From Oribacterium sp. WCC10 (lineage in GTDB: Bacteria; Bacillota; Clostridia; Lachnospirales; Lachnospiraceae), in NCBI RefSeq assembly GCF_900113415.1, contig NZ_FOPH01000019.1:1-59290 (forward strand): a DNA stretch of 59,290 nucleotides, written 5' to 3'. Both the position numbers and the translations under genes were made by a program. Positions 1-44,279 of this stretch are shown piece by piece. The first letter of the stretch is position 1. Each line of letters begins with the position of its first letter. The notes under the pieces were generated by a model that ran no database searches, was not told where the DNA came from, and saw only the letters and a list, made by a program, of their open reading frames with translations.

Positions 1-1529
1 GGAGCTTTATCTTTGTCATAATTTATGCCAACCAATAACAACTCACTACCATAGCCCTTAAGTGATTCAGGATAATGCTTCTGCTTTATCTGCTCTATGG
101 CTCCTTCGGCACTCTTATTCCATTTAAGTTCTATAACCAGTGCCGGCAGACCTGAATCATGTTTGGGAAGATAGACTACATCAGCATAACCATCTCCTGA
201 AGGAAGTTCTTCCCACTGAAGATAATTATCCTTATATGTATAATACGCAAGCTTGATCACACTTCGTAGACTGTCTTCCTTGTTGTAATGAAGCGGCGAT
301 GTTTCCTCTCTGTGAATCTTCTCTATCTGCGCGGCAACTGCTTCCTCGTTCATATTTATGGTATCTATAAACAGCTGATCACTTTCCCGAAGTCTTTTTG
401 AAGTCTCTTCATGCTCCACATTTCTGATGGCTCGCTGAAACTCGAGACGTATTTCTTCATTTGGAATATGCGCAGTTTTCTTTTCTGAATCGTATGCCAG
501 ATATCCCAAATGTATCATCAATGTCAGAACATCGTCCCTTCCTCTAAATGTCACAAGATCATTGGCAAATCCAACGGTATCAACATTGACATCCACACCA
601 CCTATGAGCTCCGCTATAGTCTTCGCCATTCCGTTATATGGCTTACTGATATAACTCATGAGCCCTTCTGCCGCAGAGGTTTCTGTCCAATAGGAATCGA
701 AATCGTCATTATATATAGCCTGCATAACTGAATTAGGATTATATATAGCGCCAACATCAGATGATTCATATCCATCATACCATTTTCTCATAAGGTCAAA
801 ATCCATACCATGCCTGTCACATAGACTCCTGACCTCACTTTCTGTAAATCCCACATACTCACCAAACCTGCGAGGTTTAACCATGGTATATTCTTTAAAA
901 TCCGAAATTGCAGACTGAGACCCGTCTTTTTTTATTGGTAAAATACCAGTTATATATGCCGCAGCAAAAATTTTCGATGTGGTTCCACTACTCTTAAACA
1001 GCATCCTTAAAAATCTCAGATACTCTTTTTCTATTTCCGGCACCTCTCTGATAGGAGCATCCCATTCGTCTATTATCATGACAATTTTGCATCCGGTATA
1101 TTCAACGCAATTTACAAGGGTTTCATCAAATGAAGCACCTGTTTTAATCTCCGGATAAGTACAGGTTATCTCTTCTGCGACATTCTTTTCTATAAAACCA
1201 ATTAATCCTTCAGCAGAAATTTTCCCAAGAATATTTGTCATGTCAAGATAGATGACATTGTAATTATTTAGAAATGACTCATAGCTTTTATCTTTACTGA
1301 TCTTATAACCGGAAAATAATCGATGCGAATCACATGATCTGTCATAATATGCACACAACATCTGTGCCGCATACGACTTCCCAAATCTACGAGGTCTGCT
1401 GACACATGTCAGTTTATTGTTTGTGTCTATCGTACTATTGATAATACTTATAAGCCCTGTCTTATCCACATAGTCAGTATTCAGTTTTTCCGAAAAACCA
1501 GCGTTACCGGGATTAAAATATATTCCCAT
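1..1529 (-). CDS. AAA-ATPase-like / PD-(D/E)XK nuclease-superfamily protein, 3' end cut by window edge
   Basis: The frame is open from an ATG at 1529 to the left edge (509 codons, no stop), so the C-terminus is missing. The start is preceded by an AGGAGG box. Near the N-terminus there is VDKTGLI followed by a P-loop-like RPRRFGKS and later a Walker-B-like IIDEWDAP, the layout of the AAA-ATPase_like family (PF09820). Near the visible end, GYADVVYLP and ALVIELKWNKS fit the D...ExK core of the PD-(D/E)XK domain usually fused to it (DUF1703). These proteins are abundant and paralogous in gut Firmicutes and Bacteroidetes. Their function is unproven and they are often suspected to be defence-related or mobile. 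The family call is firm; the biological role is unknown. Confidence 0.9.
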   Translation of the reverse strand, partial: MGIYFNPGNAGFSEKLNTDYVDKTGLISIINSTIDTNNKLTCVSRPRRFGKSYAAQMLCAYYDRSCDSHRLFSGYKISKDKSYESFLNNYNVIYLDMTNILGKISAEGLIGFIEKNVAEEITCTYPEIKTGASFDETLVNCVEYTGCKIVMIIDEWDAPIREVPEIEKEYLRFLRMLFKSSGTTSKIFAAAYITGILPIKKDGSQSAISDFKEYTMVKPRRFGEYVGFTESEVRSLCDRHGMDFDLMRKWYDGYESSDVGAIYNPNSVMQAIYNDDFDSYWTETSAAEGLMSYISKPYNGMAKTIAELIGGVDVNVDTVGFANDLVTFRGRDDVLTLMIHLGYLAYDSEKKTAHIPNEEIRLEFQRAIRNVEHEETSKRLRESDQLFIDTINMNEEAVAAQIEKIHREETSPLHYNKEDSLRSVIKLAYYTYKDNYLQWEELPSGDGYADVVYLPKHDSGLPALVIELKWNKSAEGAIEQIKQKHYPESLKGYGSELLLVGINYDKDKA

Positions 1530-6843: not shown

Positions 6844-6844
6844 C

Positions 6845-7420: not shown

Positions 7421-7447
7421 ATTTAACTGATTGGTTCCATGCAAAAT

Positions 7448-7574
7448 ATGACGCGAGTGTCAAAAGTATTGCACACGTATGATGCGCAGCACGCACACAT
7501 TCGTGTGCAGGCGGTTAAAAGTGCCAAATCAACGTGCAAGCACGTGATTTGGCACTTTTGACCCTTACATCATA
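7448..7574. repeat. Family A dispersed element, copy 1 (near complete)
   Basis: About 127 bases. The left end GAGTGTCAAAAGTATT and right end GGCACTTTTGACCC are imperfect inverted repeats. An inner palindrome GCACACATTCGTGTGC is followed by a long hairpin. The same sequence organisation recurs at 10025-10222 and 32021-32152. Non-coding and intergenic, MITE-like. Confidence 0.75.
7517..7559. terminator. Bidirectional terminator-like hairpin within family A copy 1
   Basis: A near-perfect stem, AAAAGTGCCAAATCA pairing with TGATTTGGCACTTTT, extended by GTGC/GCAC around a two-base loop, lies between the convergent carbonic anhydrase and asparaginase genes. A-rich left and T-rich right edges allow intrinsic termination on both strands. 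Confidence 0.65.
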
Positions 7575-7577
7575 TTT

Positions 7578-8758: not shown

Positions 8759-9664
8759 TTATTTTTGGGTTGCCGGTGCCGGCAGCTGTGCCAGCACAAC
8801 TGCCGTGAAAACTATGATGCACCCCAGCATCTCCTTCAATGTCATACTTTCATGCAATATGAGCCAGCCGAAGAAAACTGCAAAAACAGATTCCATACTC
8901 ATGATAAGCGGTGCGATGACAGGATCCGTGTTTCGCTGTGCCATTATCTGAAGAGTAAATGCAACACCGCTCGAAAGAACTCCGGCATAAAGAATTGTTA
9001 TTTTAGCCGCCCAAATGGATGAAATCGATGGTGTCTCGAACAAAAATGTGAGAACCAGTGATATAAGTCCTGCCACAAGAAACTGTACACATGAGATCAT
9101 TATTCCATCCGTATATCCCGTTGAAAAATGGTCTATAACCATGATATGTACCGAAAATGAAAAAGCACACAGGAGACACAGAAAGTCTCCTTTGCCTATG
9201 GAGAAGCCCTCTTTGATGCACAGAAGATAAAAACCGGCCATTGCTATAAATACATAAACCCAGATAATCTTTGCTACCTTTTTGCCGAGTAATATACCAA
9301 GAATCGGTACGATCACAATGTAAAGAGCGGTTATAAATCCGGCCTTTCCTGCAGTTGTGGTGCTTATACCCACCTGCTGAAAATTACTTGCCACTGACAG
9401 AACCATACCACAGAATATACCGCCGATAACTGAGTTTTTATTGAGAAGATCCCGCTCACCTGCAGTAAGAGGGTGATATCTGTTTCGTCTTTTTCTGAAG
9501 AAAAGTGTGACAGGAACCAGAACCAAAAATCCGATAAAGCTTCTCACCATGGTGTAGGTGAAGGGACCTACATAGTCCATTCCCGCACTTTGTGCCACGA
9601 AGGCCGATCCCCAGATAAGTGAGGCGATCAGAAGCATTAAATTTCCCTGAAAATGTTTACTCAT
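8759..9664 (-). CDS. EamA/DMT-superfamily transporter
   Basis: 301 aa with about ten hydrophobic segments in two EamA repeats. It begins MSKHFQGNLMLLIASLIWGSAFVAQ, typical of drug/metabolite exporters (RhaT/YdcZ-like group). GGAGA precedes the start. The substrate is unknown; relatives export amino acids or other metabolites. The C-terminus ends in the family A fragment region. It stands alone between inverted family A copies. Confidence 0.88.
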   Translation of the reverse strand: MSKHFQGNLMLLIASLIWGSAFVAQSAGMDYVGPFTYTMVRSFIGFLVLVPVTLFFRKRRNRYHPLTAGERDLLNKNSVIGGIFCGMVLSVASNFQQVGISTTTAGKAGFITALYIVIVPILGILLGKKVAKIIWVYVFIAMAGFYLLCIKEGFSIGKGDFLCLLCAFSFSVHIMVIDHFSTGYTDGIMISCVQFLVAGLISLVLTFLFETPSISSIWAAKITILYAGVLSSGVAFTLQIMAQRNTDPVIAPLIMSMESVFAVFFGWLILHESMTLKEMLGCIIVFTAVVLAQLPAPATQK

Positions 9665-11030: not shown

Positions 11031-11864
11031 TCACTTCAGATTTTCCCGGAACTCTTCTATCATCTTTTTCTGATAGTTTCCTTCATAGGCATCTTCAAGG
11101 AACTTTTCCAAAGCTTCATCCTTAAGCCTTTTCCATGACTTATTTTCATGATTTACAAGAATCGGATAAAAGGAAACCTCATTCTCAGCCGCTGCGGCTT
11201 CATCTCCCGGTGCATCTCCGCACATAAGCACATCCTTTGTTTCAAAGCCTTTCTTCAGTATCTCACCGATACAAAATGCCTTACTTCCCATATCCTGGGT
11301 ACAAAGAATGTCTACATATGGAAGCAGTCCGAATCTTTCCCACTCAGCCACGACAGCCTCACGATTGGCACTGGAAACCACAGCTATATCGCATCTTTCA
11401 TGGATCTTCTCAAAAGCCTCCTTCACTCCTTCAAAGGGTTTTATCTCTTCCTTTGGAAGATTACCGATGGAAACATTGACAGCCTTGCTCCAGTTGAGGG
11501 CCTTTCTGAAAATGTCATCTTCTGTCATCATTTTCTGAACAGCAGAGTTTGACAACTCCGGAGCTTCTTCAGCCCAGGTCTTAAGCGCCTTGATTCCATC
11601 GATTGGACGATACTTTTCATTAATCTCACAAAGCATCATGGCAAGTCCCTTGAATCTGTTGATACCTCTGGTCATTGAATAAAGGTTTATCTCATTCCAA
11701 CGTTCCAGAATCTCAGATTCCCACTGACTAAGTTCCCATTCCTTAACCATACACGGACCGAAACATCTGATATGTTTGATGTTCATGGTATCCATGGCAC
11801 AGCCGTCAGAATCTATGCAAACAATTTTTTTATTCTTTTTGCTATATTCATCAAATTTTGACAT
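11031..11864 (-). CDS. HAD-superfamily phosphatase-like hydrolase
   Basis: 277 aa from ATG 11864. An in-frame ATG lies four codons upstream, but the GGAG box overlaps it and is correctly spaced for the second. HAD motif I is IDSDGCAMD with nucleophile D18 and D20. Motif II is VVSSANREA, a lysine precedes MCGDAPGDEAAA, and the latter is motif IV. The cap region (about 35-150) is helical, resembling phosphoglycolate-phosphatase-type C1 caps. Substrate unknown. The gene is flanked by parts of family B elements on both sides. Confidence 0.87.
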   Translation of the reverse strand: MSKFDEYSKKNKKIVCIDSDGCAMDTMNIKHIRCFGPCMVKEWELSQWESEILERWNEINLYSMTRGINRFKGLAMMLCEINEKYRPIDGIKALKTWAEEAPELSNSAVQKMMTEDDIFRKALNWSKAVNVSIGNLPKEEIKPFEGVKEAFEKIHERCDIAVVSSANREAVVAEWERFGLLPYVDILCTQDMGSKAFCIGEILKKGFETKDVLMCGDAPGDEAAAAENEVSFYPILVNHENKSWKRLKDEALEKFLEDAYEGNYQKKMIEEFRENLK

Positions 11865-11912
11865 TACAAGCTCCATCTATATCTATATTCACATTCCAAT
11901 ACTCTAATGATG

Positions 11913-11989
11913 GCCCGGATTTTCAAAGGAAATTGATGCTTCCCATCGAAAAACCGGCCGGGGAAACGCTTTGATCAGCGTTTCCCTGT
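11913..11989 (+). repeat. Family B dispersed element, copy 2 (right part)
   Basis: GGATTTTCAAAGGAAATTGA core arm, CCGGCCGGGGAAACGC and the terminal hairpin GGGAAACGCTTTGATCAGCGTTTCCC-type stem. The left terminal hairpin is missing. Confidence 0.75.
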
Positions 11990-12013
11990 ATATGACTGTA
12001 CGTCTCTGGCAGT

Positions 12014-13759
12014 TTACAGTCTGGTATCCCATCTTCCGCAGAATACACTATCGTCCGCTTTGCCCTTAAACTCACTCCTGCCTGTAATCTTCTCTATCGC
12101 TGCCTTTATATGCTCTCTCCTCGGCGCATAGGCATTGATGAATGTATGAAGCTGAGGCACATCGATGAGATGATTTGTATAGTTAAGGCTCATTCCGATG
12201 GTTGGGATTTCCTCGTTGTACCACGGAAGCTCGCAGCTGTGGTTTACACTCCAGCGTACACGCACATTATTCTCCTGTGCGTATCCCTTAACATTGATCA
12301 CAACCAGCGCAAGATCGTGATTCTTTATGAACTCCTCACGCTTCTGATGGTTGAGCATTTTTACGAAATTCATAGGAGAGATGCCATTATCAAGCTCCAG
12401 CTCAAAGTAGTTCGGACAGACATCCACTTCGAATCCGGCATCCGAAAGCTCATCAATCACCATCTGCTTCACAGGATCCTTCCTGTAACCGAGAGTTGTC
12501 GGCGTTGACCCTACATATACAAGGAAAACCCGCTTCTTCTCAGAAGGATTTACAGGCAGATATCCTCTCGTATCCTTTACAAGGGTAATGCAGCTGTCCG
12601 CAGCCTCTCTCGCAAACTTCTGATGTTCTTCACAACCGATGCAGGAAAGCGCTGACTTCTCCGGAAAGTTTCTGCCTGGAACTTCCATATTGAGATGAGC
12701 CTTCATTCCAAGAATTCTTGTAACAGCATCATTCAGTCTCTCATCGGTAAGCCTTTTCTCCTCATATGCTTTCTTTATGAAACCAATGTCTTCTTCCACA
12801 TCATTTGCAAAAAGGAACATATCACATCCGGCGATGATCGCTCCCGGAACTGCATCGCATCTCCTGCTTGTGGCACTCATTCCAACCATATGAGAAGCGT
12901 CGGTAATGATGACTCCGTTAAATCCCATGTCCTCTCTCAGAAGATCTGTGAGAAGTTCAGGTGAAAGAGTTGCCGGCTTTATGTCCTTATCCTCGATTCC
13001 CGGTCGAAGCTTTCTTGTCATCTCAGGAAGCGCGATATGTCCAACCATGATGGTTTCGAGCCCTTCATTAATGAGAGTTCTGTAAATATAGCCGAAGTTC
13101 TTTTCCCATTCCTCTACTGAAAGGTTGTTGACTCCAAGTGCCAGATGCTGGTCCAACTCCTCCACACCATCTCCCGGAAAATGCTTTGCAGTACAGGCCA
13201 TATCCGGATTTGCATCCTTCACTCCCTTTATGTAGGCTCTTGCATTGGCAAGAACCACCTCAGGATCGGATCCGAAGCTTCTTGTATTTACAATGGTATT
13301 TCTCCAGTTTTTATATACATCAACTACGGGATTAAACATCCAGTTACACCCCACAGCAGATGCTTCCTTTCCTGCCACATATCCCAGGTGGTAGGCATTA
13401 TCAGTGCCCTCACCTGCACCGCACTCGGCAGCTGTCGCTACGAATGTTCCTTCAGGCGCAGCACCGATTCCGCCGTCATCACAGTTTGCCGCGATGAAAA
13501 GAGGGAATTTACTGTTCATCTGAAAAACCCTGTTCTGCTCGAATGCCGCTTCAGCATTTCCGCCCTGCCAGCGATGACCACCCTGATTGTACTTCGAAAG
13601 GTCTCCCTTTATCTTCCCCTCATCCATGCCGGGAGTTGCCTTAAGAAGGACAAAAAGCTGTCCTATCTTTTCATCAAGAGTCATGCCCTTAAGGGTATCC
13701 ATAACCCACTTTATCTTTTCATCACTTAAGTAAAACGGCTTTGCCTTTAAATCTACCAT
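12014..13759 (-). CDS. Glycoside hydrolase family 3 (beta-N-acetylhexosaminidase/beta-glucosidase-like)
   Basis: 581 aa, no signal peptide. The GH3 N-terminal barrel spans about 15-365: TRSFGSDPE, KHFPGDG at 192-198 with D203 and H205 (the loop Asp-His dyad typical of NagZ-type enzymes), and IITDAS with nucleophile D287. The remaining about 210 residues form a smaller alpha/beta domain. The Asp-His dyad favours N-acetylglucosaminidase or phosphorylase activity over glucosidase, but the substrate is unproven. It sits 34 bases downstream of the GPH symporter gene on the same strand: import followed by intracellular hydrolysis. Confidence 0.9.
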   Translation of the reverse strand: MVDLKAKPFYLSDEKIKWVMDTLKGMTLDEKIGQLFVLLKATPGMDEGKIKGDLSKYNQGGHRWQGGNAEAAFEQNRVFQMNSKFPLFIAANCDDGGIGAAPEGTFVATAAECGAGEGTDNAYHLGYVAGKEASAVGCNWMFNPVVDVYKNWRNTIVNTRSFGSDPEVVLANARAYIKGVKDANPDMACTAKHFPGDGVEELDQHLALGVNNLSVEEWEKNFGYIYRTLINEGLETIMVGHIALPEMTRKLRPGIEDKDIKPATLSPELLTDLLREDMGFNGVIITDASHMVGMSATSRRCDAVPGAIIAGCDMFLFANDVEEDIGFIKKAYEEKRLTDERLNDAVTRILGMKAHLNMEVPGRNFPEKSALSCIGCEEHQKFAREAADSCITLVKDTRGYLPVNPSEKKRVFLVYVGSTPTTLGYRKDPVKQMVIDELSDAGFEVDVCPNYFELELDNGISPMNFVKMLNHQKREEFIKNHDLALVVINVKGYAQENNVRVRWSVNHSCELPWYNEEIPTIGMSLNYTNHLIDVPQLHTFINAYAPRREHIKAAIEKITGRSEFKGKADDSVFCGRWDTRL

Positions 13760-17107: not shown

Positions 17108-18196
17108 TTATCTCATATGATAAACCTCATTTCCCGGTATCATCGGGTACTTCTTTGCCTGGGCCATCTCAGTGACCGTCACAAGCTGGAAGCCTTTTTC
17201 CTTAAGAGCCGGAATGAGTCGTTCGGCCGCCTCTGCAGTTTCCTCATAAGTATCATGCATCAGTACGATATCTCCGTCCTGAGCCTTCTCCATAACTACA
17301 TTAAAGGTATTGTCCGGATCTTTGGTTGAGTAATCTAACGGATCAATCGACCAGATAATCATAGGAAGACCAAGATTTCCTACAGCTGATGCTATATCTC
17401 CCGAACGGTTTCCACCTGGCGGTCTGAATACTGTTGGCGCCACCTTAACGGTTTCTTCAACCATGTAGTCGCACTTTCTTATAACAGAACGAATATCCTC
17501 AACAGGAATAGAATCAAGATAATCATGAGTGTAAGTATGATTGCCCAGCTCACATCCAAGCTCTACCATTCTCTTTACACAGTTATTATTATCGCCTACA
17601 ACACGGCTTCCCTGCATGAAAAATGTAGCATGTCCTCCGTTTGCTTCCAGTGAATCAAGTATCCTGTTTGTGACCTCAGCCTTAGGACCGTCATCAAAAG
17701 TCAATGCTATCATAGGCTTTGTCGGATCTATCCAACTGAGATCCACATCCGCTCCAAGGAACTGATTATTCATGGCGATGTAGTCATCCGGAATCAGATA
17801 TTTCTTAAGTACATATCCTGACTTACCATCCACACTGAACTGGTCCCATCCCTCGATGTTTCTCTCTACGGATACGGCTGCCCCTTCATCAAGGATTCCC
17901 AGAACATCAGAATCGCTTTCTGAATCAACATGTATGTTCACTGCCGTAAGCGCTCTTGCTGTATACGGATACGGAAAGCTGACTCTTTCAATCTTCTTTG
18001 AGTCAGATGCCAATGTCTCTGTACCGGCAGCATCTCCGCCGGCATTACCGGATTCATCGGATGTATCCGTCTCCAATGTACTCTCTACTACTGTTTCCTT
18101 TTTTCCTTCCGGAATCCCCATCACTCCGCAGGCTGCTACAGCCCATGCAACAGATCCTGCCAATGGTAACATAAAAAGTTTACTGATTTTTTTCAT
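17108..18196 (-). CDS. Lipoprotein polysaccharide deacetylase with SH3-like domain (NodB fold)
   Basis: 362 aa from ATG 18196 (MKKISKLF). A basic N-terminus and hydrophobic stretch end at C23 (AVAAC), a plausible lipobox or at least an export signal. Residues 30-65 are an acidic Ser/Thr linker. Residues 80-135 look like a bacterial SH3 domain (GYVLKKYL), expected to bind cell wall. The NodB domain shows TFDDGP (166-171), metal ligands H220 and H224 in HTYTH, RPPGG (258-262), WSIDPLDY and LMHD (312-315). Probable peptidoglycan GlcNAc/MurNAc or other glycan deacetylase at the cell surface. Downstream partner of the L,D-transpeptidase gene (44 bases apart). Confidence 0.9.
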   Translation of the reverse strand: MKKISKLFMLPLAGSVAWAVAACGVMGIPEGKKETVVESTLETDTSDESGNAGGDAAGTETLASDSKKIERVSFPYPYTARALTAVNIHVDSESDSDVLGILDEGAAVSVERNIEGWDQFSVDGKSGYVLKKYLIPDDYIAMNNQFLGADVDLSWIDPTKPMIALTFDDGPKAEVTNRILDSLEANGGHATFFMQGSRVVGDNNNCVKRMVELGCELGNHTYTHDYLDSIPVEDIRSVIRKCDYMVEETVKVAPTVFRPPGGNRSGDIASAVGNLGLPMIIWSIDPLDYSTKDPDNTFNVVMEKAQDGDIVLMHDTYEETAEAAERLIPALKEKGFQLVTVTEMAQAKKYPMIPGNEVYHMR

Positions 18197-18240
18197 ACTC
18201 TGCTGATATACATAATTTGAGTCACCCAACAACCGTATGA

Positions 18241-19143
18241 TCACTCAACTATATATACTCTGTCCCCCACTTCCATCACATCATATATTTCTTTGACCCA
18301 TTCATTATACACTCCGATGCAGCCTCTGGTAGCATCCATCAGCTCACCTTGCCCATGAACCTCTATAGCACCGCCAAGTGCAGTGTTCCATAACGGCTTC
18401 TGTAGATTCCTGCTTGCTGATATAAGCTGGTCTGCAATTGTACTGCTGATGAGTCCTGACTTAAGTCCCCTTCTCGCATCTTCTATATTCGGATAATTAA
18501 GTCCCATCTCCTCTTTCAAAGAGTCAGAAACCTTTTTTTCACAGATATAGAAATATCCCACCGGTGTTCGATAGTCTCCCTGTTTCTCTTTATCTCCCTC
18601 AGCAGCGCCGGAAGTGACCATGTAGGATTTTACCATATTCCCGTTGAACCACAACTCCATATAATGAGAGGACTTATCATACGCAAGTGCCCTTCGTCCG
18701 TGACTTGCGTACTTCATAAAAGTCCTGTTGATATTGTTGTCCTTTGGATCCAGCTTTATACCATCAATGTCTACGTAAGCACTTCTGTCAGGTATAAGCT
18801 GATCACGAAGCATTTCTCCGTTTTCATTGAAATACCTCAGAAATCCGTCTGGACATGTCATAAAACTGCTGAATACACCATTATTTCTTGCCGCCTCCTG
18901 TGCTTCAAGCATGCCCGCCGCATGTAACGGATTCGATATCGGGTGATATTTTGCCGCAGCTCTCTCTGCAGGATTGGTAATGTTTTGCAGATTTACAGAT
19001 ACATCAAGATATGGATCATCCAGATCTTCAGCTTTGACAACTAAAACATTTATGAAAATCAAAAATGCACAAAGCAGCATCTTCCGAAAGACATTGATAA
19101 AAATATTTATATTCTTTTCTCCGGTATTTAAAAACTCTGTCAT
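18241..19143 (-). CDS. L,D-transpeptidase (YkuD domain)
   Basis: 300 aa from ATG 19143 (AAGGA about 10 bases upstream); the longer open frame upstream lies in a family B repeat. A hydrophobic segment near residues 22-37 is a signal peptide or anchor. The C-terminal YkuD domain shows H263 in IEVHGQ and nucleophile C275 in ATRGCIGV, the canonical H...RGCI/V pattern. It makes 3-3 peptidoglycan crosslinks or attaches proteins to wall. Operon with the deacetylase points to wall remodelling. Confidence 0.9.
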   Translation of the reverse strand: MTEFLNTGEKNINIFINVFRKMLLCAFLIFINVLVVKAEDLDDPYLDVSVNLQNITNPAERAAAKYHPISNPLHAAGMLEAQEAARNNGVFSSFMTCPDGFLRYFNENGEMLRDQLIPDRSAYVDIDGIKLDPKDNNINRTFMKYASHGRRALAYDKSSHYMELWFNGNMVKSYMVTSGAAEGDKEKQGDYRTPVGYFYICEKKVSDSLKEEMGLNYPNIEDARRGLKSGLISSTIADQLISASRNLQKPLWNTALGGAIEVHGQGELMDATRGCIGVYNEWVKEIYDVMEVGDRVYIVE

Positions 19144-19293: not shown

Positions 19294-21765
19294 TTACCGA
19301 TCATTACATATACCGTAATATTTCTCAACATATCTCAATATCTCATCCGTATCACCACTGTCATTTATGAAAGTTATGTAACCCTGCAGCGATTCAGCCT
19401 TTGATTTAAGAACATCAGATGCCTCGTCAACAAATATACGGCTCTCATACTTACTGTTTCTTGCATCCTGCATCAGATTACATGCCGCGCTGTTTCCGTC
19501 CAGTGCTATCATCACAGACTGGCGACGTTTGAACACTTCATAGGCAATGCTCTTATATGTACCTAACGGAGATGACTCAATTGAGACTCTTACATTTACA
19601 TCACTGTTTTTGAGAGTTTCCATCTCGCTTTCAGTGAGTGTTGCAGGTACAAAAGCAAATATGTCGAACTTATCCTTACCCTTATCAAGAACATGCTTTT
19701 CGTACCCAAGTAAGCCAGGTCCAATCACAAAAAACATCTTGTCCGGATCCCCCTTTTGAAGAAGGTCATCCAAAAGACTCAGCTCCTTTTCATTAACCTC
19801 GGTTACATGCTCCGAATTATTGAAGCTTCCACCGGCTACGACTATAGGTACCTTACCTTCAGGAAGTTCACGTATCTTATCATGAAGCTCTACGGAGCTG
19901 TCATACTGTCTTTCTCCTCCATCCATATCCATGAAGTCATCCGCTTCATCGCGTATTCGTTTGTTGAGATAATCCTCAACTGGCATACCGCCGCAGGCTG
20001 CATAGAAACTCTGAATCTTGTCATTGAACTCCTTCATGGATCTTTGTACGATCTCATCCTCGGAGGTTCTCATCTTAAACAGTTCATCATGACTGAGATC
20101 CAGCATACGCTCAAGCGATAACTGTTCATCTATGGAATCCGTTCCGTAAAGTGCACCTCCATCAGTACCCTGAACACATGAAATACCGGTTTTCAGATAC
20201 TGCTTTAACGGATGCGTGTCAAGTCTTGAAAGATTGTTAAGTCTTACATTGGATGTGATCTGGAACTCAAGTGTCACACCGTATTCACATATTTTCTTGA
20301 GAAGGGTTCTACCCTTTTCTGTACAAAGATCCGCTGTATAAAGACCATGACCTATTCTCATATGCGGGAATCTCTGTCCTTCATTGAGAGACTCCTCAAC
20401 GCAGGTTATACTGTTATAAACATTATCCGGAAGAGAATCATTTTCACCGGCATGTATTCTGATAACATATGAAGGAATATCTCTTGCGATATCCACAACA
20501 GCTCCTATAACCGGCTTAAGCTCAAGAATATCGTTTATCTCTTCTCCAACGAAATCACTACCCGCTACATATGGATCAACAGCTACAGCTTTCAAAACCT
20601 GCAGATTCTCGGTGAAATAATTACCATGTGCCACCTGATCCTTTAATATCGTGAGCGGTATACGCCTAAGGGCGGCAAGGAATCTGATAGTGACACCGGT
20701 TTCTCTTGTAATCCTGGGCATCACTTCATGTATTTCCCTAAGGGTTTGAGCTGCTTCGGATTTCTTAACCAGTGCCGTATCCGACATCTCTGCATAAGTG
20801 ATACCATTATTCTGATATGCTCTCGCTACCCAGAGAAGTCCATCCTGATAAAGTGTATTATCAGCGTAGTCAGGATTTCTTCTGTCGCGCTCCATCTGCT
20901 TCAGTGTTTCGACTATATCCCGATCCGGTATCGCTTCAAAGTTTTTAATCTCTATTCTCTCTCCGGCGGGAACACCCTTTGTAAATACATATCTGTAGAT
21001 ATAAACTTTCTCAAGATTAGTAAATACCGCCTGACCATCCTTCATAACCGCAAGGGATGCTCTGATTTTCGGAATGTTGTATCTGCTTCCGGAAATATTG
21101 TTCAGTATCAGATCAGCGAAATTGATCTCAGTATTGTCATCTATCTTTCTGTCCAGATATTTACCCTCGAGACCACAATCTTTAAATCTTATCGCAACCT
21201 CTGCCCTCTGTTTTTCCAGAGCCTCTCTCTGTTCCGGAGTTATCTTAAGCCCCAGTTTCTTAACATAATAGTATGGATATCTGATCTGATGATGAATACC
21301 CAGCGCAATGAGTACATCCGGGCTAAGATTTGCGCTTCTGTGCGTATGTAAGTCTGAACGGAACTTCACATCTTCAAATATATAAGTCTTCACCAGAGTT
21401 TTATTAATATCGAAGGTATAGTCCTTGGTCTGACTCATGAAGGTCTTTGAGATGGCAGGAATATATGCCTTTCTCTCGATTTGCCCGTCGGGATAGATAT
21501 TGGCAACCTTTGTATTTCCCATTCTCAGAATATAAACCTTACGGTTATCACCATTAATGTAGCATGGAACTTTGCCTTCTATGATCTTCAGTCCCTCAGC
21601 ATTGTAAGTGATTGGCAACTCGCAAACCTTTGCAAGGTTGGTGATAAGATTACCGGTTCCGTGATTTGGTGTTTCAAGGATATAAGACATCTTTTCATCA
21701 TCCAAAAAGAGTGAAACGATAATGTCTTTTTCCTTATCAAGATAGAATTTTCCAAAATAAGTCAT
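19294..21765 (-). CDS. Adenosine-deaminase-like amidohydrolase fused to a C-terminal Rossmann-like domain
   Basis: 823 aa, much longer than classical adenosine deaminase (about 340). Residues 1-130 are an uncharacterised beta-rich N-terminal domain. The deaminase barrel spans about 135-640, with all expected metal and catalytic residues: H140 and H142 (DLHTHRS), H438 and E441 (HAGE), H473 (GHG) and D535 (GTDGG). The barrel contains large helical insertions. Residues 645-823 have a nucleotide-binding-like pattern (VPIVVAGGSF, FFVIGPGLLGY, SSPLGTYKSIAYE), possibly of the SLOG/LOG type; that part is inference. Likely a purine or nucleotide deaminase. It follows an HD 5'-nucleotidase gene downstream of repB. 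Long RdrB proteins of RADAR defence are also ADA-related, but no RdrA-like ATPase is adjacent. Confidence 0.82.
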   Translation of the reverse strand: MTYFGKFYLDKEKDIIVSLFLDDEKMSYILETPNHGTGNLITNLAKVCELPITYNAEGLKIIEGKVPCYINGDNRKVYILRMGNTKVANIYPDGQIERKAYIPAISKTFMSQTKDYTFDINKTLVKTYIFEDVKFRSDLHTHRSANLSPDVLIALGIHHQIRYPYYYVKKLGLKITPEQREALEKQRAEVAIRFKDCGLEGKYLDRKIDDNTEINFADLILNNISGSRYNIPKIRASLAVMKDGQAVFTNLEKVYIYRYVFTKGVPAGERIEIKNFEAIPDRDIVETLKQMERDRRNPDYADNTLYQDGLLWVARAYQNNGITYAEMSDTALVKKSEAAQTLREIHEVMPRITRETGVTIRFLAALRRIPLTILKDQVAHGNYFTENLQVLKAVAVDPYVAGSDFVGEEINDILELKPVIGAVVDIARDIPSYVIRIHAGENDSLPDNVYNSITCVEESLNEGQRFPHMRIGHGLYTADLCTEKGRTLLKKICEYGVTLEFQITSNVRLNNLSRLDTHPLKQYLKTGISCVQGTDGGALYGTDSIDEQLSLERMLDLSHDELFKMRTSEDEIVQRSMKEFNDKIQSFYAACGGMPVEDYLNKRIRDEADDFMDMDGGERQYDSSVELHDKIRELPEGKVPIVVAGGSFNNSEHVTEVNEKELSLLDDLLQKGDPDKMFFVIGPGLLGYEKHVLDKGKDKFDIFAFVPATLTESEMETLKNSDVNVRVSIESSPLGTYKSIAYEVFKRRQSVMIALDGNSAACNLMQDARNSKYESRIFVDEASDVLKSKAESLQGYITFINDSGDTDEILRYVEKYYGICNDR

Positions 21766-23050: not shown

Positions 23051-24334
23051 TCAGTCTTTCCTGTCCCACATACTGGGTTCCTGTGCAATCTTATCGTAAT
23101 CATTAACAAGACTAGCCAAAAGACGCTTATAGGTTGTTGTCTTAGTATCTTCCGGAGTTGCCTGTATCCACTGATAATAATGAGACATATAATCTGTTGC
23201 CCATGCATCATAAGCGTCAATACGTATCTGTCTTGGTTCCAGATTTCTTATACATGCGTGATAAAGATTCTCAATCTCTCTCTCGGTAAAATCTTTATAT
23301 ATGGCCATGTAGAAAATAGGATATGGTGTTTCCTCAGCTCTCTTTTCAGCTAACTCGTCTGCATTCTCAGGCTCAACCACAACCTCAACAACTTCAGCTT
23401 CTTCCTTTTCTCTCTGCAATTTATCCTGCATAAAGAAAGACTCCTCTATAGTCATCTGATGAGGTTCCATATCATCTACAATATTGTCAAAGTTACCATT
23501 GTACTCTGAATCAAGTATACTCTGAGTTTCTTTAAGTTCTCCACTTGTCTTGGGGAGCATAATAAACTTGATGCGCACAGGTCTTCTGTACTTCTTTCCC
23601 ATCGCATCTGTTTTCAAAGCTTCATAAGCGATCTTTATATCTGTGTAATGATTTATCTCTTCCTTTGCAGGCGCAAGTACATCTCTTTCAAAAAATGAAA
23701 ACTTTGACCAGCTCTTTGGAATCTTGGCAACATTTTTTCCCTTCTTATTCGGATCCGGCTCCCAGTCAGCAATCTTTCTCATAAAGTCATTATCTGTTCC
23801 GGTTCCAAGTTCAAAGGTCCATGTCTTATTGTTAAACTGATATGATCTTAAAAGGTCAAATATTCTCGGAGAATACTTGTGAGTCATCAAAGATGTCTCC
23901 TCAAGACGTGGAGCTATGTAGTATTTTTCTTTATCCGTCATCAGATTATAGAGAAACGGAAACATATCTTCATGAAACTTTATCTCTACATCTCCGCTTC
24001 CCGGATCCATATGAACGACATTAAGCCAGTGAACCATCGCCTCTTTTCCGCTTTCAAGTGTGATCCACCATGTTTTCTGTCCTATATCATTCAATATAGC
24101 CTTTGTATTTGTATAGCTAAGCTTATTGGCCGAAGCACTTCTATGAATTATCTGTTGGAACTCGCTGCAGTTAAATGTATATACCGTATTGATATCATCT
24201 GTAGGCTTTATCTTTGAAATCAGATAGTTAACAGCCTTACTTTCAACCAGTGTAAGCGAGAACTTTCCTTCCTGCACCATCTTCGTGCTTTTTGCAACTT
24301 TTTGCTTACGAGCTTTTTCTATACCATGACTCAT
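23051..24334 (-). CDS. repB: Replication initiator protein, Rep_3 (RepB) superfamily
   Basis: 427 aa. The tandem winged-helix initiator fold of Rep_3 (PF01051) is visible: KFSLTLVESKAVNYLISKIK, SPRIFDLLRSYQF, FSFFERDVLAPAKEEIN and YTDIKIAYEALK are typical blocks. The C-terminal about 130 residues are acidic, then end in a domain of Trp/Tyr-rich helices. Such proteins bind iterons and open the origin. The iteron field lies directly upstream, and one perfect but inverted iteron (24368-24384) is only about 34 bases before the start codon, the expected place for autorepression. Downstream of parAB and the origin on the same strand. Confidence 0.93.
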   Translation of the reverse strand: MSHGIEKARKQKVAKSTKMVQEGKFSLTLVESKAVNYLISKIKPTDDINTVYTFNCSEFQQIIHRSASANKLSYTNTKAILNDIGQKTWWITLESGKEAMVHWLNVVHMDPGSGDVEIKFHEDMFPFLYNLMTDKEKYYIAPRLEETSLMTHKYSPRIFDLLRSYQFNNKTWTFELGTGTDNDFMRKIADWEPDPNKKGKNVAKIPKSWSKFSFFERDVLAPAKEEINHYTDIKIAYEALKTDAMGKKYRRPVRIKFIMLPKTSGELKETQSILDSEYNGNFDNIVDDMEPHQMTIEESFFMQDKLQREKEEAEVVEVVVEPENADELAEKRAEETPYPIFYMAIYKDFTEREIENLYHACIRNLEPRQIRIDAYDAWATDYMSHYYQWIQATPEDTKTTTYKRLLASLVNDYDKIAQEPSMWDRKD

Positions 24335-24367: not shown

Positions 24368-24384
24368 GTTGAGTGATTGTACGG
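24368..24384 (-). promoter_or_regulatory. Inverted iteron at the repB promoter, probable autorepression site
   Basis: Perfect match to CCGTANNNNNACTCAAC on the minus strand, opposite to nearly all other copies, immediately upstream of repB. In Rep_3 plasmids, inverted iteron-like operators control rep expression. Here that role is inference from position. Confidence 0.6.
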
Positions 24385-25403
24385 ATAACTCTCTCTTTTT
24401 TCTTAATTTCCATTTTAATTTAATATTTTATCTATTTCAATAAAACAAGTACCGTAAGTTTACTCAACTCTGACGTATATTTTCTCAACTATACGTATAT
24501 ATACTCTCTTTTCGATATCTTTTGGGCCGGTGAACCGTAAATAATCTCAACTTTCACGTGATCTGGCAACAATAATATCCGTATATTCACTCAACTTTTA
24601 TACGAAAAAGCTATTTTCATGAGTCATTATACGCCAATTTATCTATAAATAAACCGTATGTTTACTCAACTTTCGCATTTTCACCTGATGAGTGAGCAGT
24701 AGACGTAATATAACTCAACTGTAATCAAATATCTACCGTTAATTCTCTCAAATTTTGCACTCAACTTCCGTATATTTCTACAATATACCGTATTTCCATT
24801 CAACTTACCGTACAAATGTTATAATTACCGTAACTTCCCTCAACTTTCATAATCAGAAATCGCTTATTTATCGATTTTCTGTCATTTGTAACCGTACATT
24901 TACTCAACTTTAAATACTTTTTGAGATCATTTTCTGAATAAAAAACTTTATTGATGTTATTCCACCGTAAATCAACTCAACCTTCGTCCGTATTTTCACT
25001 CTACTTTCACTCTTATTCCAGCTTTTCATACGCCCCGGAACTCAACCTGTAACCGTTTTTTTCTATTCTTTTCACCTAAAACCGTATAAAAACTCAACAG
25101 TTTCACATCAGTGATAGTATTTTTCCGTATATTTTCTCTAAATTTACATCTTACACGAATTATTAGTTACGTATAATCACTCAACCTTACCGTAATTTTG
25201 CTATAAGTTGGCGTAAAACAACTATATAATTCCGCATATCTTCTAAACTTTTATATGTTTTCTACGGAAGTTGAGTGATTTTACTTCCAAACATACGTAC
25301 CGTATAAGCACTCAACTCTCCCGTATTTTAACGCAAATCCTATCGTACATTCACTCAATTTATTCCGTAATTCCACTCTCTTTTCAACGTATGCTGACTC
25401 AAC
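24368..25403. repeat. oriV: Iteron field / replication origin, consensus CCGTANNNNNACTCAAC
   Basis: About 1 kb of AT-rich non-coding DNA between repB and parB, filled with a 17-bp repeat. Exact plus-strand copies begin at 24452, 24579, 24654, 24892, 24965, 25082 and 25300; an exact inverted copy is at 24368. Copies with one mismatch begin at 24535, 24703, 24788, 24828, 24988, 25169 and 25387. More diverged copies and isolated halves (CCGTA or ACTCAAC alone) lie between them, including a partial inverted copy at 25270-25286. Spacing is irregular, unlike the tight 20-22 bp arrays of classical iteron plasmids. This is the binding field for the RepB-like initiator. No clear DnaA box was found by eye. 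Confidence 0.88.
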
Positions 25404-25462
25404 TCTGACAGGATTTCTTCTATAAGATGATAAAATAAATAAAATAGATATATTAAGATTAT

Positions 25463-25537
25463 CTACTACTACAATAACGTCAGAATTACGCAATAATGAT
25501 TTCTGAATAAAATCCTTGGGATACAATGTAGTAGTAG
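25463..25537. other. Inverted repeat CTACTACTACA / TGTAGTAGTAG flanking a 53-bp spacer
   Basis: Perfect 11-bp arms at 25463-25473 and 25527-25537 lie between the origin and the parB terminator. The segment could be a structured RNA, a protein-binding site or part of the origin. No coding frame is credible. Confidence 0.45.
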
Positions 25538-25560
25538 TTTTTATTATTTGAACTTTTTAT

Positions 25561-25684: not shown

Positions 25685-26905
25685 TCAGTTTTCCTCGATA
25701 AGCGCTTTTAGATCATCTATAATTGATCTGATCTTTTGTACATCATTCTTACTGAACTGGTAACCTCTTTTTTCTTTTCGTTTTCCAAGCTTAACTACAT
25801 TATCATTAATCTTTGAAAGCATTTCATTGACTGCGATAGGAGCGGATATACCTATAGTTTTATTAATCTGTTCTGCATCTGCTTCCTTGGCATCTTTCAA
25901 TATTTTCTGATATTTATCAGCTTTTTCTCTTGCACGTCTTAATTGTGCCTGAGTGTTAATAAGCTCCTGTGATGCCTTTTCATTTATATCTTGATCATCA
26001 TTAACCAAAGACTCCAGTTCAATAGTTTTATTTTTCAGGCGTTTGATTTCATCTTCCTGTTCTCTGAGTTTAAGTTCATTTTCTTTTAATCTTTCTTCAG
26101 CCTCTTTCTGAAGTCTGATATTTTCTTCATCCTGAGACTTTAGCTGCTGATATTCATCTTCAGTAAGAGCTTCACCCTTTTCATTAATGAAGTCCAGTAT
26201 ATAATTCTGTACAGAGATACTTCTTGAGGCATACTGATTTGCCTGATTTATTGATATTTTTTCTTCATCGAGGAGATTCTGTAAACCTACGATGAGATTT
26301 TTATTTATTGAATCATACTTACGTATCTGCCTGGATGATATAGAGAGCTTTTCTGCGATTCTATCATATAACTTCTTTTCAATGCCTCTTTTCTGAAGGA
26401 GTTCCATAAGTCTTGCAACTCTTTTTCGCATATCTCCCGGATGAGATGCTTCAGATACCGCATCATAGTTCATGAGAAGATTTAATTCTTCAAGTTCAGG
26501 CCATGGTATATCATCTCTTAGAATAAGTGCCGGAATCTTTCTATGCATGAAAGAAGGATTCTTCTCTAGTATCATACTGAAAGCAGCATACCTTCTGTGA
26601 CCTGATATTATGATATAGTTTCCTGTTGGCTTTCCTGTTCTTGATTCACCGCCATCAAATTCTCTGGCTACAACGATTGCCGACTGAAATCCGTTACGTT
26701 CGATGTTTTCTGCAAATACATCTATATCAGTATCATCTATATCACGGTTATCCGGGAAAGAAACCAGTTTCTCATACTGAAGCATTTCAATCTTGGATCC
26801 GTTACCGAGATCAAGACTCACTGTATCCAGTTTCTTTTGTGTATTTTGTAATAATATTTTTTGGTTACTGTAGCCTAATGGTGCAGGCTCTTTTTTGTAT
26901 GCCAT
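25685..26905 (-). CDS. parB: ParB-family partition protein
   Basis: 406 aa. The ParB/Srx N-terminal domain covers about 25-150 with GHRRYAAF at 102-109. A helix-turn-helix region follows (AEKLSISSRQIRKYDSINK), then a long charged coiled coil (about 245-345) and a C-terminal domain ending in LKALIEEN. It binds centromere-like sites and, with ParA, segregates the replicon. It starts 12 bases after the parA stop. The coiled coil is longer than in chromosomal Spo0J, fitting a plasmid or chromid version. Confidence 0.93.
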   Translation of the reverse strand: MAYKKEPAPLGYSNQKILLQNTQKKLDTVSLDLGNGSKIEMLQYEKLVSFPDNRDIDDTDIDVFAENIERNGFQSAIVVAREFDGGESRTGKPTGNYIIISGHRRYAAFSMILEKNPSFMHRKIPALILRDDIPWPELEELNLLMNYDAVSEASHPGDMRKRVARLMELLQKRGIEKKLYDRIAEKLSISSRQIRKYDSINKNLIVGLQNLLDEEKISINQANQYASRSISVQNYILDFINEKGEALTEDEYQQLKSQDEENIRLQKEAEERLKENELKLREQEDEIKRLKNKTIELESLVNDDQDINEKASQELINTQAQLRRAREKADKYQKILKDAKEADAEQINKTIGISAPIAVNEMLSKINDNVVKLGKRKEKRGYQFSKNDVQKIRSIIDDLKALIEEN

Positions 26906-26917
26906 ATGGTTACTTCC

Positions 26918-27748
26918 TTATCTTTGTTCCATGTCAAATCTTGTTTTGGCGTTTGAATATTCTTTTAAAAGCTTTTTGTAATCATCCAGGTTTATAAGGG
27001 ATAATTGTTGAGCTACATTTATGTAATCTGTGCCGGCATTAGTTTTTTTATCGTAGTAATAGATAGGCATATATCTCGATAGAGATTCTGCAATGTTGTT
27101 ATCATCTCTGATTACTGACTTAAGTGCTATGTTCTGGAACATTGAATCATATGCAGAATACTTTTGCTTTACCAGTGTTGTTCTTGCCTTAACATGTGCC
27201 AGAAGGACACCAAGTATTTGCAGATCACTGTTGTAGTCTGATTGAATTCTGTAATAGTCTTCAATTACATCGGAAATTCCATCATAGGAAAAGTTTGCAG
27301 AATCTACCGGTATAAGAACATAGTCAGAAGCAATAAGAGACATATCAGAAAAACTGTCTGCCGCAGGATTGTTATCGATGATTATCGTATCGTATTCAGG
27401 TTTAAGCTTATCAAGAATGTCTTTGAGTCTATAAAGATCCTTTTCCTGAAAACCGTTACTATAAAAGTATTGATCCGGTCTTTTGACATGCTTGTTGTTG
27501 GGTAATACATCAACTCCGAATTCTGAATGAACCAGTACTTCGTCTATTGTGGCATCACCGAAGAGGAGATCAGTAACATCAGGCTTTTCTTCATCAAAGG
27601 CGCGATATACCTGACTGGAATTTCCCTGACAGTCCATATCGACTATAAGGGATTTTTTACCGACTAATGTTGGAATACATGCAAGCTCTACACAGCTTGT
27701 TGTTTTGCCTACTCCACCTTTTTTATTGAAAGCACATAATATACTCAT
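26918..27748 (-). CDS. parA: ParA-family partition ATPase
   Basis: 276 aa from ATG 27748, chosen for its GGAGG site (an ATG five codons upstream lacks one). Deviant Walker A KKGGVGKTT (residues 9-17), SLIVDMDCQGNSS (Walker A') and DTIIIDNNPAADSFS (Walker B) define a ParA/Soj ATPase. No N-terminal HTH extension, so type Ib-like in length. First gene of the par operon, upstream of parB and the origin. Confidence 0.95.
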   Translation of the reverse strand: MSILCAFNKKGGVGKTTSCVELACIPTLVGKKSLIVDMDCQGNSSQVYRAFDEEKPDVTDLLFGDATIDEVLVHSEFGVDVLPNNKHVKRPDQYFYSNGFQEKDLYRLKDILDKLKPEYDTIIIDNNPAADSFSDMSLIASDYVLIPVDSANFSYDGISDVIEDYYRIQSDYNSDLQILGVLLAHVKARTTLVKQKYSAYDSMFQNIALKSVIRDDNNIAESLSRYMPIYYYDKKTNAGTDYINVAQQLSLINLDDYKKLLKEYSNAKTRFDMEQR

Positions 27749-27929
27749 GATTCCTCCATACAAATGTTTGGGAAAAAATTTTGATTCTATTTATTGTACT
27801 ATATTTTTTGCGTAAATGAAATATTTATGCTTTAAAAATTCGTTACATTTAGTTTTACTTTACTAATTTTAAATAGAGAATATTGGTATTGTTTTGGATT
27901 TGTTATGATATTTTTGCTGCTCGAAGGCT

Positions 27930-40985: not shown

Positions 40986-43900
40986 ATGAAAAAGCAAATG
41001 TATAAGGTGATGGCAGCGGTGCTGACATTGTCTCTGGTTAGTGCACCCTTTTCATCAGTCACAAAGGCTTATGCAGCAGAGAATAATTCAATGGCGCTGC
41101 AGAAAGATATTGGTTTTCAGTTCGACGGAACGGACTGGTTCTATATGGATGCTTTTGGACAGAAGAAAACCGGATGGGTTACTGAAGTTGACGGAAACAG
41201 GTATTATCTTGACCCGGTTAACGGCAAGCTGCGTACAGGGTGGCTTAAATCAGACGGAAACTGGTATTTTCTCAACAACTTAAGTGACGGTACAAAGGGG
41301 AAAATGATTACAGGGTGGCAGTGGATCGATGGATACTGCTATTATTTCGATGCCGCAGGAAAAATGTTGTTCGGAACATATACTCCTGACGGATTCTATG
41401 TAAATGCAAACGGGCAGTGGTCAGAGAGTGACGGAACGGCACACTTCGTATCAGGTAAGGGATTAAGTACGGCTAATGTACTTGGTGAATCAAGAGTCAA
41501 TCTTGTGACTTCAAGGACATCCGGAGGTGGTTCCGGCGGATCAGGAAGCTCGGGAAGCAGAAGAAGACAGTCCTCGGATTCTTCGGTAAAAGATGAAGAT
41601 AAAAAGGATAATAAATCTTATTCCGATCAGGATACAAAACCCATTAAAGACAACGGTAATGCAGGCAATAACGCAGATGATGAAAATGCATCCAGGCCGG
41701 AGACAAAGACAGAACCAAAAGACAAACCAAATCAGAAATCCGATGAAAAAACAGAGTCGGATCCTAAAACACAACCTGAGACTATACCTTCAAAGGAAAC
41801 CGAAAAGGATTCTGATAAAAAAACTGCAAAAGATAGCGATGTGAAGGTGACAGGATTTAAGGCTATGAAGACCCTTAACATTCCATATCAGGGATCAGAG
41901 GACAGCACTTTAAACATTGTAGAGAATAAACTCAAAAACAGTGGTGTCACGGTTTATCTGTCAAACGGAAAAAGAACCACAGCGGTTGCAACAGGCTGGA
42001 AGATAGAAGGAACCGCAGAGATCGGGAAAACATTGGTTGCAAAACCTGAAACATTAAAAGTCGCAGACAGATATAAAAACATTCAGGAACAGTTTGAGAA
42101 GCTTGATATAGAAGAGAAGATAAATATCCTGAAAGGAAATGTTCAGGAAGAGATATCAGATCCTGTTGAAACTACGGAAGCTCCTAATGAAGATCCTACA
42201 CAGGAAGAATCAGGTACAGAAGAGTCGACAACTGCTTATGAAAACAAACATCCTGATGACTGGACCATCACAGGATATGTTCAGCCTGAAGTATTAGAAC
42301 TTGATTATATAGATTCTGATTTAGACAGCTACAAGCAGTATTTTCCAAAGACTGTAATCTATAAAACCAATGACGGTACAGATATAACAATTGATGCAAA
42401 GTGGTATGACGGTTTCACACGTATCAAGGAAGGACTGGTTGAGGGAGGAGAGATCACAGTACGCTGTGATAACAGTTTTAATGATTTCCCTTATGAAGTA
42501 AGAAGACAGATTTCTTTTGATTCTTTTGATAGTGTAGGAACACCGACACTTACCATTAGATTTAAGAAAAAAGATACTGTAGCTGATCAGAAAGAAATAA
42601 AGATAAGTCTTGACAGAGAGCCGGCTGTTACCGGTTCTTCATATGATCAATATCAATACGCTTACGGTGATGATCTCACCATTAATCTCGAGAATTATGA
42701 TGGTGACGGAAGTGATGTGGAGATCACAGGAGCAGTCGGTTTTTCTGAGAAACTAAATGCTCTTTCATATGATGAAACAAGTGGAGAGTTAACCTTGCCC
42801 GTTAAGGATTTCATGCCTAATGGTATGACAGAAAATTTCTGGCTTACGATAAAAGTCAGTGGTGTAAAGAAGTTCCAGGCAAGAATATATATATCCACAG
42901 ACAGAAACATTACTTTTAAGGATAAGAAGTCAGGCACGGTGATCTACAACGGAATATCTAAAAAGAAAGATTTTGTGACAACTGTGAGCTTCGTTAATGT
43001 GCCGGAGGAAGACATTAAGAATATATCCTTTAGAAGCGGTAATGAAGATCTTAAGGATAAATTCTCATTGACGAAGACCGACGAAGAAGGGGTATATGAG
43101 TTCAGAATTCCTAAGGACTATATAAAGTCTGTTTTGGGAAGCATAGGATTTACGATCTATTGTGAAGCAGTATTCCCTGTATCTGTCAGGATATATACCA
43201 TGCCGGATCCATCATTGTATGTAAACAGGTATGATGGATGCTATGCTGCGGAAGATCAAGAGTTAGGACTTAAAAATTTCTCCTTTGATAAAGCTTCAAT
43301 TGATGATTTATACGTAAAGCTTATAGATGGTGAAAACAATGAAAAGATTCTTGTTAAGGGAACGGACTATAAGATAGATGTTGCAGAAAAGAAGATTATT
43401 CTCATTTCTTCAAGCATCCTTGGAACAGATTCTCTTGATGAAGATATGACATTTACTGTACTTGTGGAAGCTAAAGAAGATGAAGAAAGCGCAAAAACTT
43501 CCATAAAGTACAAGAAGGATAGAATTGCAAAGGTAAAGATTGTTGAGACCATTATACCGAATACACCGGTTTATATTAAGATTGAAAACCTTGAGTACGG
43601 AGAGAGTCTGGATGATACAGAGATATATGCAGGTGAGGAAAAGATAAGTGGCTGGTCAGTGATATCCGGGTATTACAGTGAACAGATAGTTATTCCGTAT
43701 GAAATCATTGAAAAGTATCTGAAAGATGGCAAAGCTGACTTCACTATAAAAAAACCTAAGTTTAAGAACAGTGACTTTAGTATCGTGATACCGGATTATT
43801 CAGGTGAGGATGCTCCTGTTGAAACAGCGTATGTTAATGAATACGGCACAAAATATGAGCTTCAGGATGAAAAGTACCCTGTTTTCTCAGGTACAGGAAG

Positions 43901-44213: not shown

Positions 44214-44279
44214 AAGATATTCAGTGAATGTTAAGAATGCGTCAATATTATATAAAGGGTTAATGAAAAGCGGGTAGTT

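Follow-up and report, generated by a model that had tools for sequence, protein, structure and literature searches.

A probable Rep_3 replication origin in rumen Oribacterium with a compact iteron core, a long phased tail and distal inverted clusters

Background

The replication origins of plasmids F, P1, R6K and RK2 share a two-winged-helix initiator and phased direct repeats (iterons) that adjoin an AT-rich region. A DnaA box near a Rep_3 origin is usual, though not universal. Plasmid iterons are generally found in helical phase, according to passages of PMC5043065. On chromosome II of Vibrio cholerae, homologues of the origin iterons lie about 40 kb away on the same replicon, and extra copies of them inhibit replication (PMC3937223, from the portion of that paper available). 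In the cisII and cisMP regions of Deinococcus radiodurans secondary replicons, 8-11 iterons, each 18 bp long, adjoin parAB; the available sections of PMC7671480 report binding by DnaA and ParB and suggest that no RepC homologue was found. In Butyrivibrio proteoclasticus, pCY186 and pCY360 have a ParA gene, one or two further genes, an iteron array (12 sites in 0.7 kb and 14 sites in 0.6 kb, respectively) and then a Rep gene; a ParB is annotated on pCY186 only. A review of chromid replication places iteron chromids in the beta- and gammaproteobacteria, and neither 'Firmicutes' nor 'Butyrivibrio' occurs in the available text of that review (PMC6090056).

Here we describe an array in Oribacterium sp. 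WCC10, on a contig of 59,290 nucleotides that was analysed at full length and is called the window (contig C29 of this assembly). Its probable origin is of the Rep_3 iteron kind in a variant layout, with a hidden tight core, a long phased tail and distal inverted clusters. Unlike the origins of F, P1, R6K and RK2, the array extends about 0.9 kb further beyond a five-iteron core, has no DnaA box within one mismatch and is accompanied by distal clusters on other contigs. It resembles pCY186 and pCY360 in gene order, but their Rep proteins are only 17-18% identical to that of WCC10 and their iteron words differ; cisII and cisMP contain fewer repeats than the WCC10 array (PMC7671480, same sections). 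The RctB sites outside the V. cholerae chromosome II origin may be an analogue of the distal clusters, although Oribacterium belongs to another phylum and its distal sites form inverted clusters. Among the literature matches listed, in which subscription journals are thinly covered, this origin is not described in titles or the opening lines of abstracts.

We consider it likely that the whole is the origin of a secondary replicon (a megaplasmid or chromid), consisting of a core, a control tail and distal clusters that would bind RepB. What emerges is a Firmicutes genus with several species that use one initiator; their origins can be compared, evolution has marked out a minimal core in them, and distal sites are present. 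Two questions can be put to the test there: what makes some Rep_3 replicons retain long arrays when their small relatives have 3-8 copies, and whether iteron replicons of some size generally rely on distant sinks for their initiator.

The initiator gene and the skew switch

The array adjoins repB (23051..24334, minus strand), which encodes a Rep_3 initiator of 427 aa with WH1, WH2 and a C-terminal extension. Both winged-helix domains score above the Pfam cut-off (PF01051, WH1, 73.2 bits, E = 3.6e-20; PF21205, WH2, 38.7 bits, E = 1.2e-9). This supports the first-pass annotation, which had read the repeats as iterons of a Rep_3-type initiator with two winged helices, and the array also lies at a switch in GC skew. 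Orthologs of repB at 90-92% identity were found in six of 17 genomes of the genus, WCC10 included, one per species; repB is thus a plasmid-type replication gene conserved across related species, one of the features by which chromids are recognized. Among 250 genomes sampled from the family, RepB was found at E ≤ 1e-25 in one, WCC10 itself. Public plasmids gave 171 records matching RepB at 1e-5, none of them at 60% identity or 80% coverage. A phmmer search of the PDB (E ≤ 0.01) returned nothing, and the predicted RepB structure has a mean pLDDT of 38.

Three Oribacterium replicons with long arrays have initiators that share a C-terminal RepB domain. The domain fails as a rule for recognizing long arrays, however, because the initiator of another WCC10 replicon, on contig C23 (a 327-aa ORF), accompanies a long array and has no Pfam domain beyond residue 282.

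GC skew in the window is negative to the left of the array and positive to the right, and it is opposite-signed across the array in all six repB contigs. The cumulative minimum falls at 26800, within a ParB-like gene and 1.3 kb from the AT-rich block described below, so the switch marks the region rather than the exact start. Taken with the adjoining initiator gene, it suggests that the array is probably the origin of a Rep_3 replicon common to rumen Oribacterium. The GC content of the window is 40.4%, and that of three WCC10 control loci 33-41%. No tRNA was found in any of the 20 loci scanned, one of which is from C23, and 20 proteins run through Pfam included no clear core gene and one SpoU-type methylase. 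A promoter scan of the array region gave nine hits where 8.0 were expected, which is chance level. Further along the window (40986-51095) lie two very long adjacent ORFs, of 1075 and 2271 aa; the latter is 70% identical to an ORF on contig C13 of strain JC7.

The iteron and its helical spacing

We scanned for the 17-mer CCGTANNNNNACTCAAC. The window contains 27 matches at up to two mismatches, compared with 2.29 ± 1.44 in shuffled sequence (none of 100 shuffles reached 27), and 19 of these lie in 24368-25403. That segment holds eight exact copies (24368 on the minus strand, 24452, 24579, 24654, 24892, 24965, 25082 and 25300) and seven with one mismatch (24535, 24703, 24788, 24828, 24988, 25169 and 25387), the same numbers that had been counted before. 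Three satellites lie further left: 17325..17341 (minus, one mismatch), 18233..18249 (plus, exact, 6 kb from the array) and 19313..19329 (plus, one mismatch). Strains NK2B42 and KHPX15 have exact sites at a distance similar to that of the satellite at 18233, and strains JC7, C9 and P6A1 have sites similar to the one at 19313. Across the WCC10 genome (3.64 Mb, 53 contigs) the word matches 45 times at up to one mismatch, and a reversed control pattern seven times.

Pooling 103 sites (up to one mismatch) from seven arrays, we found the conserved unit to be CCGTA, five A/T-rich bases, ACTCAAC and TTT, about 20 bp in all. The central five bases had been described as free; they are instead A/T-biased, with T at the fourth base in 80 of the 103 sites, and conservation extends past ACTCAAC into the TTT. 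We propose that RepB would bind this iteron of about 20 bp, CCGTA-N5-ACTCAAC-TTT.

The first-pass annotation had also noted halves occurring alone, and had read them as separable half-sites. Lone CCGTA is indeed in excess in the WCC10 array (six, against 1.4 expected), with one to seven copies in each of the seven arrays. The second part of that claim fares less well: the partner half beside lone CCGTA matches ACTCAAC at 3.0 of seven positions, compared with 1.9 in shuffled sequence, and the direction is the same in 7/7 arrays. Lone CTCAAC occurs twice in WCC10, against 0.5 expected, and not at all or once in the six other arrays. Because the partner half still resembles ACTCAAC, the lone halves look like decayed full iterons for the most part. 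True half-sites were rejected as the main reading.

Distances between copies had been called uneven, but most gaps are multiples of one helical turn, about 10.6 bp. Same-strand neighbour gaps (108 gaps in seven arrays) peak near 21, 32, 42, 53, 65, 75 and 86 bp, with a best period of 10.7. Taken by itself, the WCC10 array has a phase score of 0.61 for a period of 10.6 bp (P = 0.0026, the null being gaps jittered by at most 5 bp) and in a second run a score of 0.54 (P = 0.005); the seven pooled arrays are from related species, and phasing P-values are to be read as not independent. Among other Rep_3 sets, phasing as strong was reached in 0/3000 null runs for both KHPX15 contig C34 and strain C9 contig C7, and P-values were 0.0033 for pCY186, 0.033 for the minus strand of C23 and 0.050 for pCY360. 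The plus strand of C23, one of seven sets and with only three short gaps, is not phased (P = 0.97). Neighbouring iterons thus tend to be separated by complete turns of the helix.

The outer array of helically spaced iterons (24452..25185, plus strand) is a candidate control region. Between the core described below and repB there are 15 other sites at up to two mismatches, the majority of which face the same side of the helix; we propose that this region would hold RepB, pairing or titrating it. An exact reverse iteron (24368..24384, minus) lies between repB and the rest of the array, and a site in this orientation is found upstream of repB in all seven arrays. It is a possible RepB operator, at which RepB would repress its own gene. 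A second reverse site, with two mismatches, lies to the left of the core (25270..25286, minus).

A compact core beside an AT-rich block

The first-pass annotation contrasted the array with classical origins and overlooked a tight core at its right end, where five plus-strand iterons (25300..25403; starts at 25300, 25321, 25343, 25365 and 25387 with 0, 2, 2, 3 and 1 mismatches) follow each other at steps of 21, 22, 22 and 22 bp. Immediately beyond them lies an AT-rich block (25410..25478, 19% GC), so that the right end is laid out like a small classical origin, core iterons and then AT block. Identity of WCC10 to five relatives is 88-91% in the AT block and 68-70% in the core iterons, compared with 36-46% in 24450-25290 and 38-46% in 25479-25550. 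Within 25404-25478, 61 of 75 positions are invariant across species. This conservation and composition make the block a probable DNA unwinding element. The same register (five repeats, TTTCTTC, an AT-rich stretch and a CTACTAC-like end) recurs in two more Oribacterium replicons with different iteron words; their initiators are 32-37% identical.

The right end of the block contains an invariant CTACTACTACAATA (25463..25476, minus), which reads (TAG)3 on the opposite strand. The opposite arm of an inverted repeat, TGTAGTAGTAG, lies at 25527..25537 (plus) and was not seen in three of the five other species. The DnaA-trio is given as 3'-G/AAT-5' in the part of PMC10797057 available; the trinucleotide arm at 25463..25476 recalls it and may, by analogy, serve in a similar way. 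No DnaA box within one mismatch of the consensus turned up in any of the six species, whether in the array or in the flanking sequence. Elsewhere in WCC10, three DnaA-family matches occur, on contigs C19, C13 and C21 (243, 174 and 51 bits).

We propose that the working origin would be these five iterons of 21-22 bp with the adjoining AT block. RepB on the core would open the block and load the helicase, and forks would depart bidirectionally.

Partition-type genes beside the array

To the right of the AT block lies a ParB-like gene (25685..26905, minus; a GHRR-type motif by eye), 85-88% identical in five species, for which neither Pfam nor NCBIfam gave a match; the gene in its place on pCY186 is annotated as ParB. 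It is followed by a ParA-type ATPase gene (26918..27763, minus; PF13614, E = 3.4e-36). With such genes adjoining the array, the repeats could be mainly a centromere, bound by the ParB-like protein and moved by ParA, with the distal clusters as further parS sites. It is common for parS sites to be scattered around origins, which counts for this reading. So do the Deinococcus repeats upstream of parAB, with both origin and parS-like functions in the sections of PMC7671480 available. We nevertheless consider a mainly centromeric array improbable. The word is not a palindrome and is phased as iterons are, and the right end of the array is a Rep-type core with its AT block. On plasmid pRJF2 the repeats precede rep and no par gene is annotated. 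Likewise the C23 replicon of WCC10 has a long array beside rep, and no parA was seen among the three neighbours tested beyond it (one sigma factor and two without a Pfam match). A ParB silent to Pfam may still be among those neighbours, as the ParB-like gene of the window itself has no Pfam match.

Array length among Rep_3 replicons

How unusual the array is depends on what it is compared with. Five small rumen plasmids have 3-8 copies near rep (pRJF2 four, pRGF00006 eight, pRGI00071 four, pRGI00069 five and pRGI00522 three), mostly 22 bp apart; a listed copy may span more than one iteron, so true counts may be slightly higher. Against these the array is long, as had been claimed. It is not long beside the other Rep_3 loci of Oribacterium or pCY186 and pCY360, whose arrays measure 0.6-1.8 kb: KHPX15 contig C34 (28 kb) has 27 sites in 1.8 kb, strain C9 contig C7 has 20 in 0.9 kb, and an rpoA-linked Rep_3 locus has 15-20 sites (up to two mismatches) in the 1.7 kb upstream of rep in 10/10 genomes. 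Array length is therefore not special to the repB replicon. The comparison of pCY186 and pCY360 with the small plasmids suggests that it may be linked to replicon size.

Distal clusters of iterons

Outside the window, WCC10 has two clusters of five copies each at up to one mismatch, at C5 50860-51057 and C25 1800-2068. The first-pass annotation held that equal density of the repeat elsewhere on the genome would speak against an iteron array, and in a formal sense such density exists here (five copies within 200 and 270 bp); these clusters, though, appear to belong to the same system as the array. In all six genomes with an orthologous repB, the array is accompanied by at least one further cluster on another contig (WCC10 C5 and C25, NK2B42 C21, JC7 C13, P6A1 C18 with two, KHPX15 C37, and strain C9 C15 with two). 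A seventh array, from UBA3643, is on a 3.3-kb contig and falls outside this count. The incomplete genome G012 has one cluster, and no repB was found in it. Among the other ten genomes of the genus, which do not have this repB, the exact word is absent from nine and occurs once in G010.

The clusters are inverted, with minus sites first and then plus sites. The two groups are 81-120 bp apart in most clusters and 14 bp apart in one cluster of strain C9. Many of the steps between sites measure 20-21 or 40-41 bp, and the rest 27-37 or 85 bp. A gene for CstA or for a 177-aa protein is found no further than about 5 kb from the clusters.

The 177-aa protein begins MAINPIGA (locus L030, 2322-2855), and has no Pfam match; in seven genomes its gene is no more than about 5 kb away from a distal cluster, and more distant relatives are present in G006 and G001, which do not have this repB. 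Five CstA or 177-aa loci from genomes without repB (L071-L075, 4-19 kb each) contain two lone two-mismatch matches and no cluster. Lone exact matches on WCC10 C44 and NK2B42 C29, which overlap ORFs, were set aside.

According to our proposal, the inverted clusters lie tens of kb from the origin, would be copied soon after initiation and would then bind more RepB, acting as a brake that helps to prevent early re-initiation. If this is true, the fork itself creates new initiator sinks shortly after firing. The recurrence of clusters near CstA or the 177-aa gene could instead mean that they are relics of former origins, or RepB operators of nearby genes, and that replication control does not involve them. 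We regard this as unlikely, though it deserves to be weighed. No origin-like AT block was noticed by eye in eight cluster sequences, which also fits it. Against it, the inverted geometry and near-consensus sites are kept while the flanks diverge, and the immediate neighbours of the clusters partly differ among species.

The replicon carrying the clusters

The distal clusters could also be chromosomal and act like the Vibrio crtS site, passage of the chromosomal fork timing the secondary replicon. They are off the repB contig in 6/6 assemblies, at related loci, and C5 and C25 have a GC content of 42%, where the window has 40%. We compared ORFs between species (at least 55% identity and at least 70% coverage), and several cluster contigs have next to no genes in common with repB contigs (one ORF each: C5 1/68, JC7 C13 1/69 and NK2B42 C21 1/42). 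The short C25 shares 1/6, and other cluster contigs share more (P6A1 C18 7/54, strain C9 C15 4/52, KHPX15 C37 4/49 and G012 C302 3/21). In the opposite direction, relatives on the cluster contigs of other species were found for 7/40 ORFs of the window and 8/75 of C8 in strain C9, and for one ORF each on the remaining repB contigs (JC7 C10 1/89, NK2B42 C11 1/64, KHPX15 C84 1/43 and P6A1 C20 1/39). Control loci gave none (six other loci, 0/97 ORFs; WCC10 C23 and C44, 0/65). Among other Rep_3 contigs, KHPX15 C34 shares 0/10, and C7 of strain C9 shares 1/17 with each class.

Two observations link some of the clusters to repB contigs. P6A1 C18 combines clusters with relatives of genes from both the cluster contig (C15) and the repB contig (C8) of strain C9; one such family is that of WCC10 8759-9664, which is found on the repB contig of strain C9. 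In WCC10, one end of the window (1..709) is identical to an end of C25, which carries a distal cluster (709 bp, 100%), and the two contigs dovetail; the overlap could be a mere repeat. The lone exact matches on P6A1 C1 and JC7 C24 sit inside one conserved coding gene, which also counts against chromosomal sites. The chromosomal reading of the C5 and C25 clusters is set back by the gene sharing and the dovetail, and we consider it very improbable that the clusters are crtS-like sites, although that of C5 may yet be one.

From the gene sharing we infer instead that the clusters are on the repB replicon, and in three species the distance between origin and cluster would be about 25-70 kb. If the contigs abut, the distance from cluster to array is about 25.5 kb in WCC10, 39 kb in P6A1 and 70 kb in strain C9, and the signs of the skew fit these three assumed layouts.

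A second Rep_3 replicon

The second Rep_3 initiator and array of WCC10, on C23, are flanked by a second rpoA and a primary-type sigma-70 factor (locus L032, C23 24000-38000: rpoA 5954-6904, rep 7159-8142, sigma factor 11492-12634). This sigma factor has regions 1.2, 2, 3 and 4 and is one of three in WCC10 that have region 1.2; contig C21 carries the standard rpoA, next to rpsD- and rplQ-like genes (by eye). The C23 rep and array were found in nine other genomes of the genus.

The half-site CCGTA is part of the words of both WCC10 Rep_3 replicons. The word of the second replicon, CCGTANNNNNGTTATA, also occurs in the window array, exactly at 24808..24823 (plus) and with one mismatch at 25190..25205 (plus). 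At up to one mismatch it is absent from the repB arrays of the five other species; the idea of a conserved cross-talk between the replicons was rejected, since the foreign word is in the WCC10 array only, of six species compared. We suggest, tentatively and with some doubt, that a distal brake of inverted initiator-site clusters evolved here independently of Vibrio, and that the two Rep_3 replicons may read each other.

An exact copy of CCGTANNNNNGTTATA lies at 50811 on C5, beside the cluster there. The C23 array (L032 8501-8624) contains three ACTCAAC; of its counterparts in the nine other genomes, four contain one each and five contain none. Many exact copies of CCGTANNNNNGTTATA lie far from its own array (C23, C41, C42, C15 and other genomes), some of them as an identical 16-mer in several species, and JC7 (C9:33471/33508) and strain C9 (C6:27350/27387) each have two inverted copies at a distance of 37 bp.
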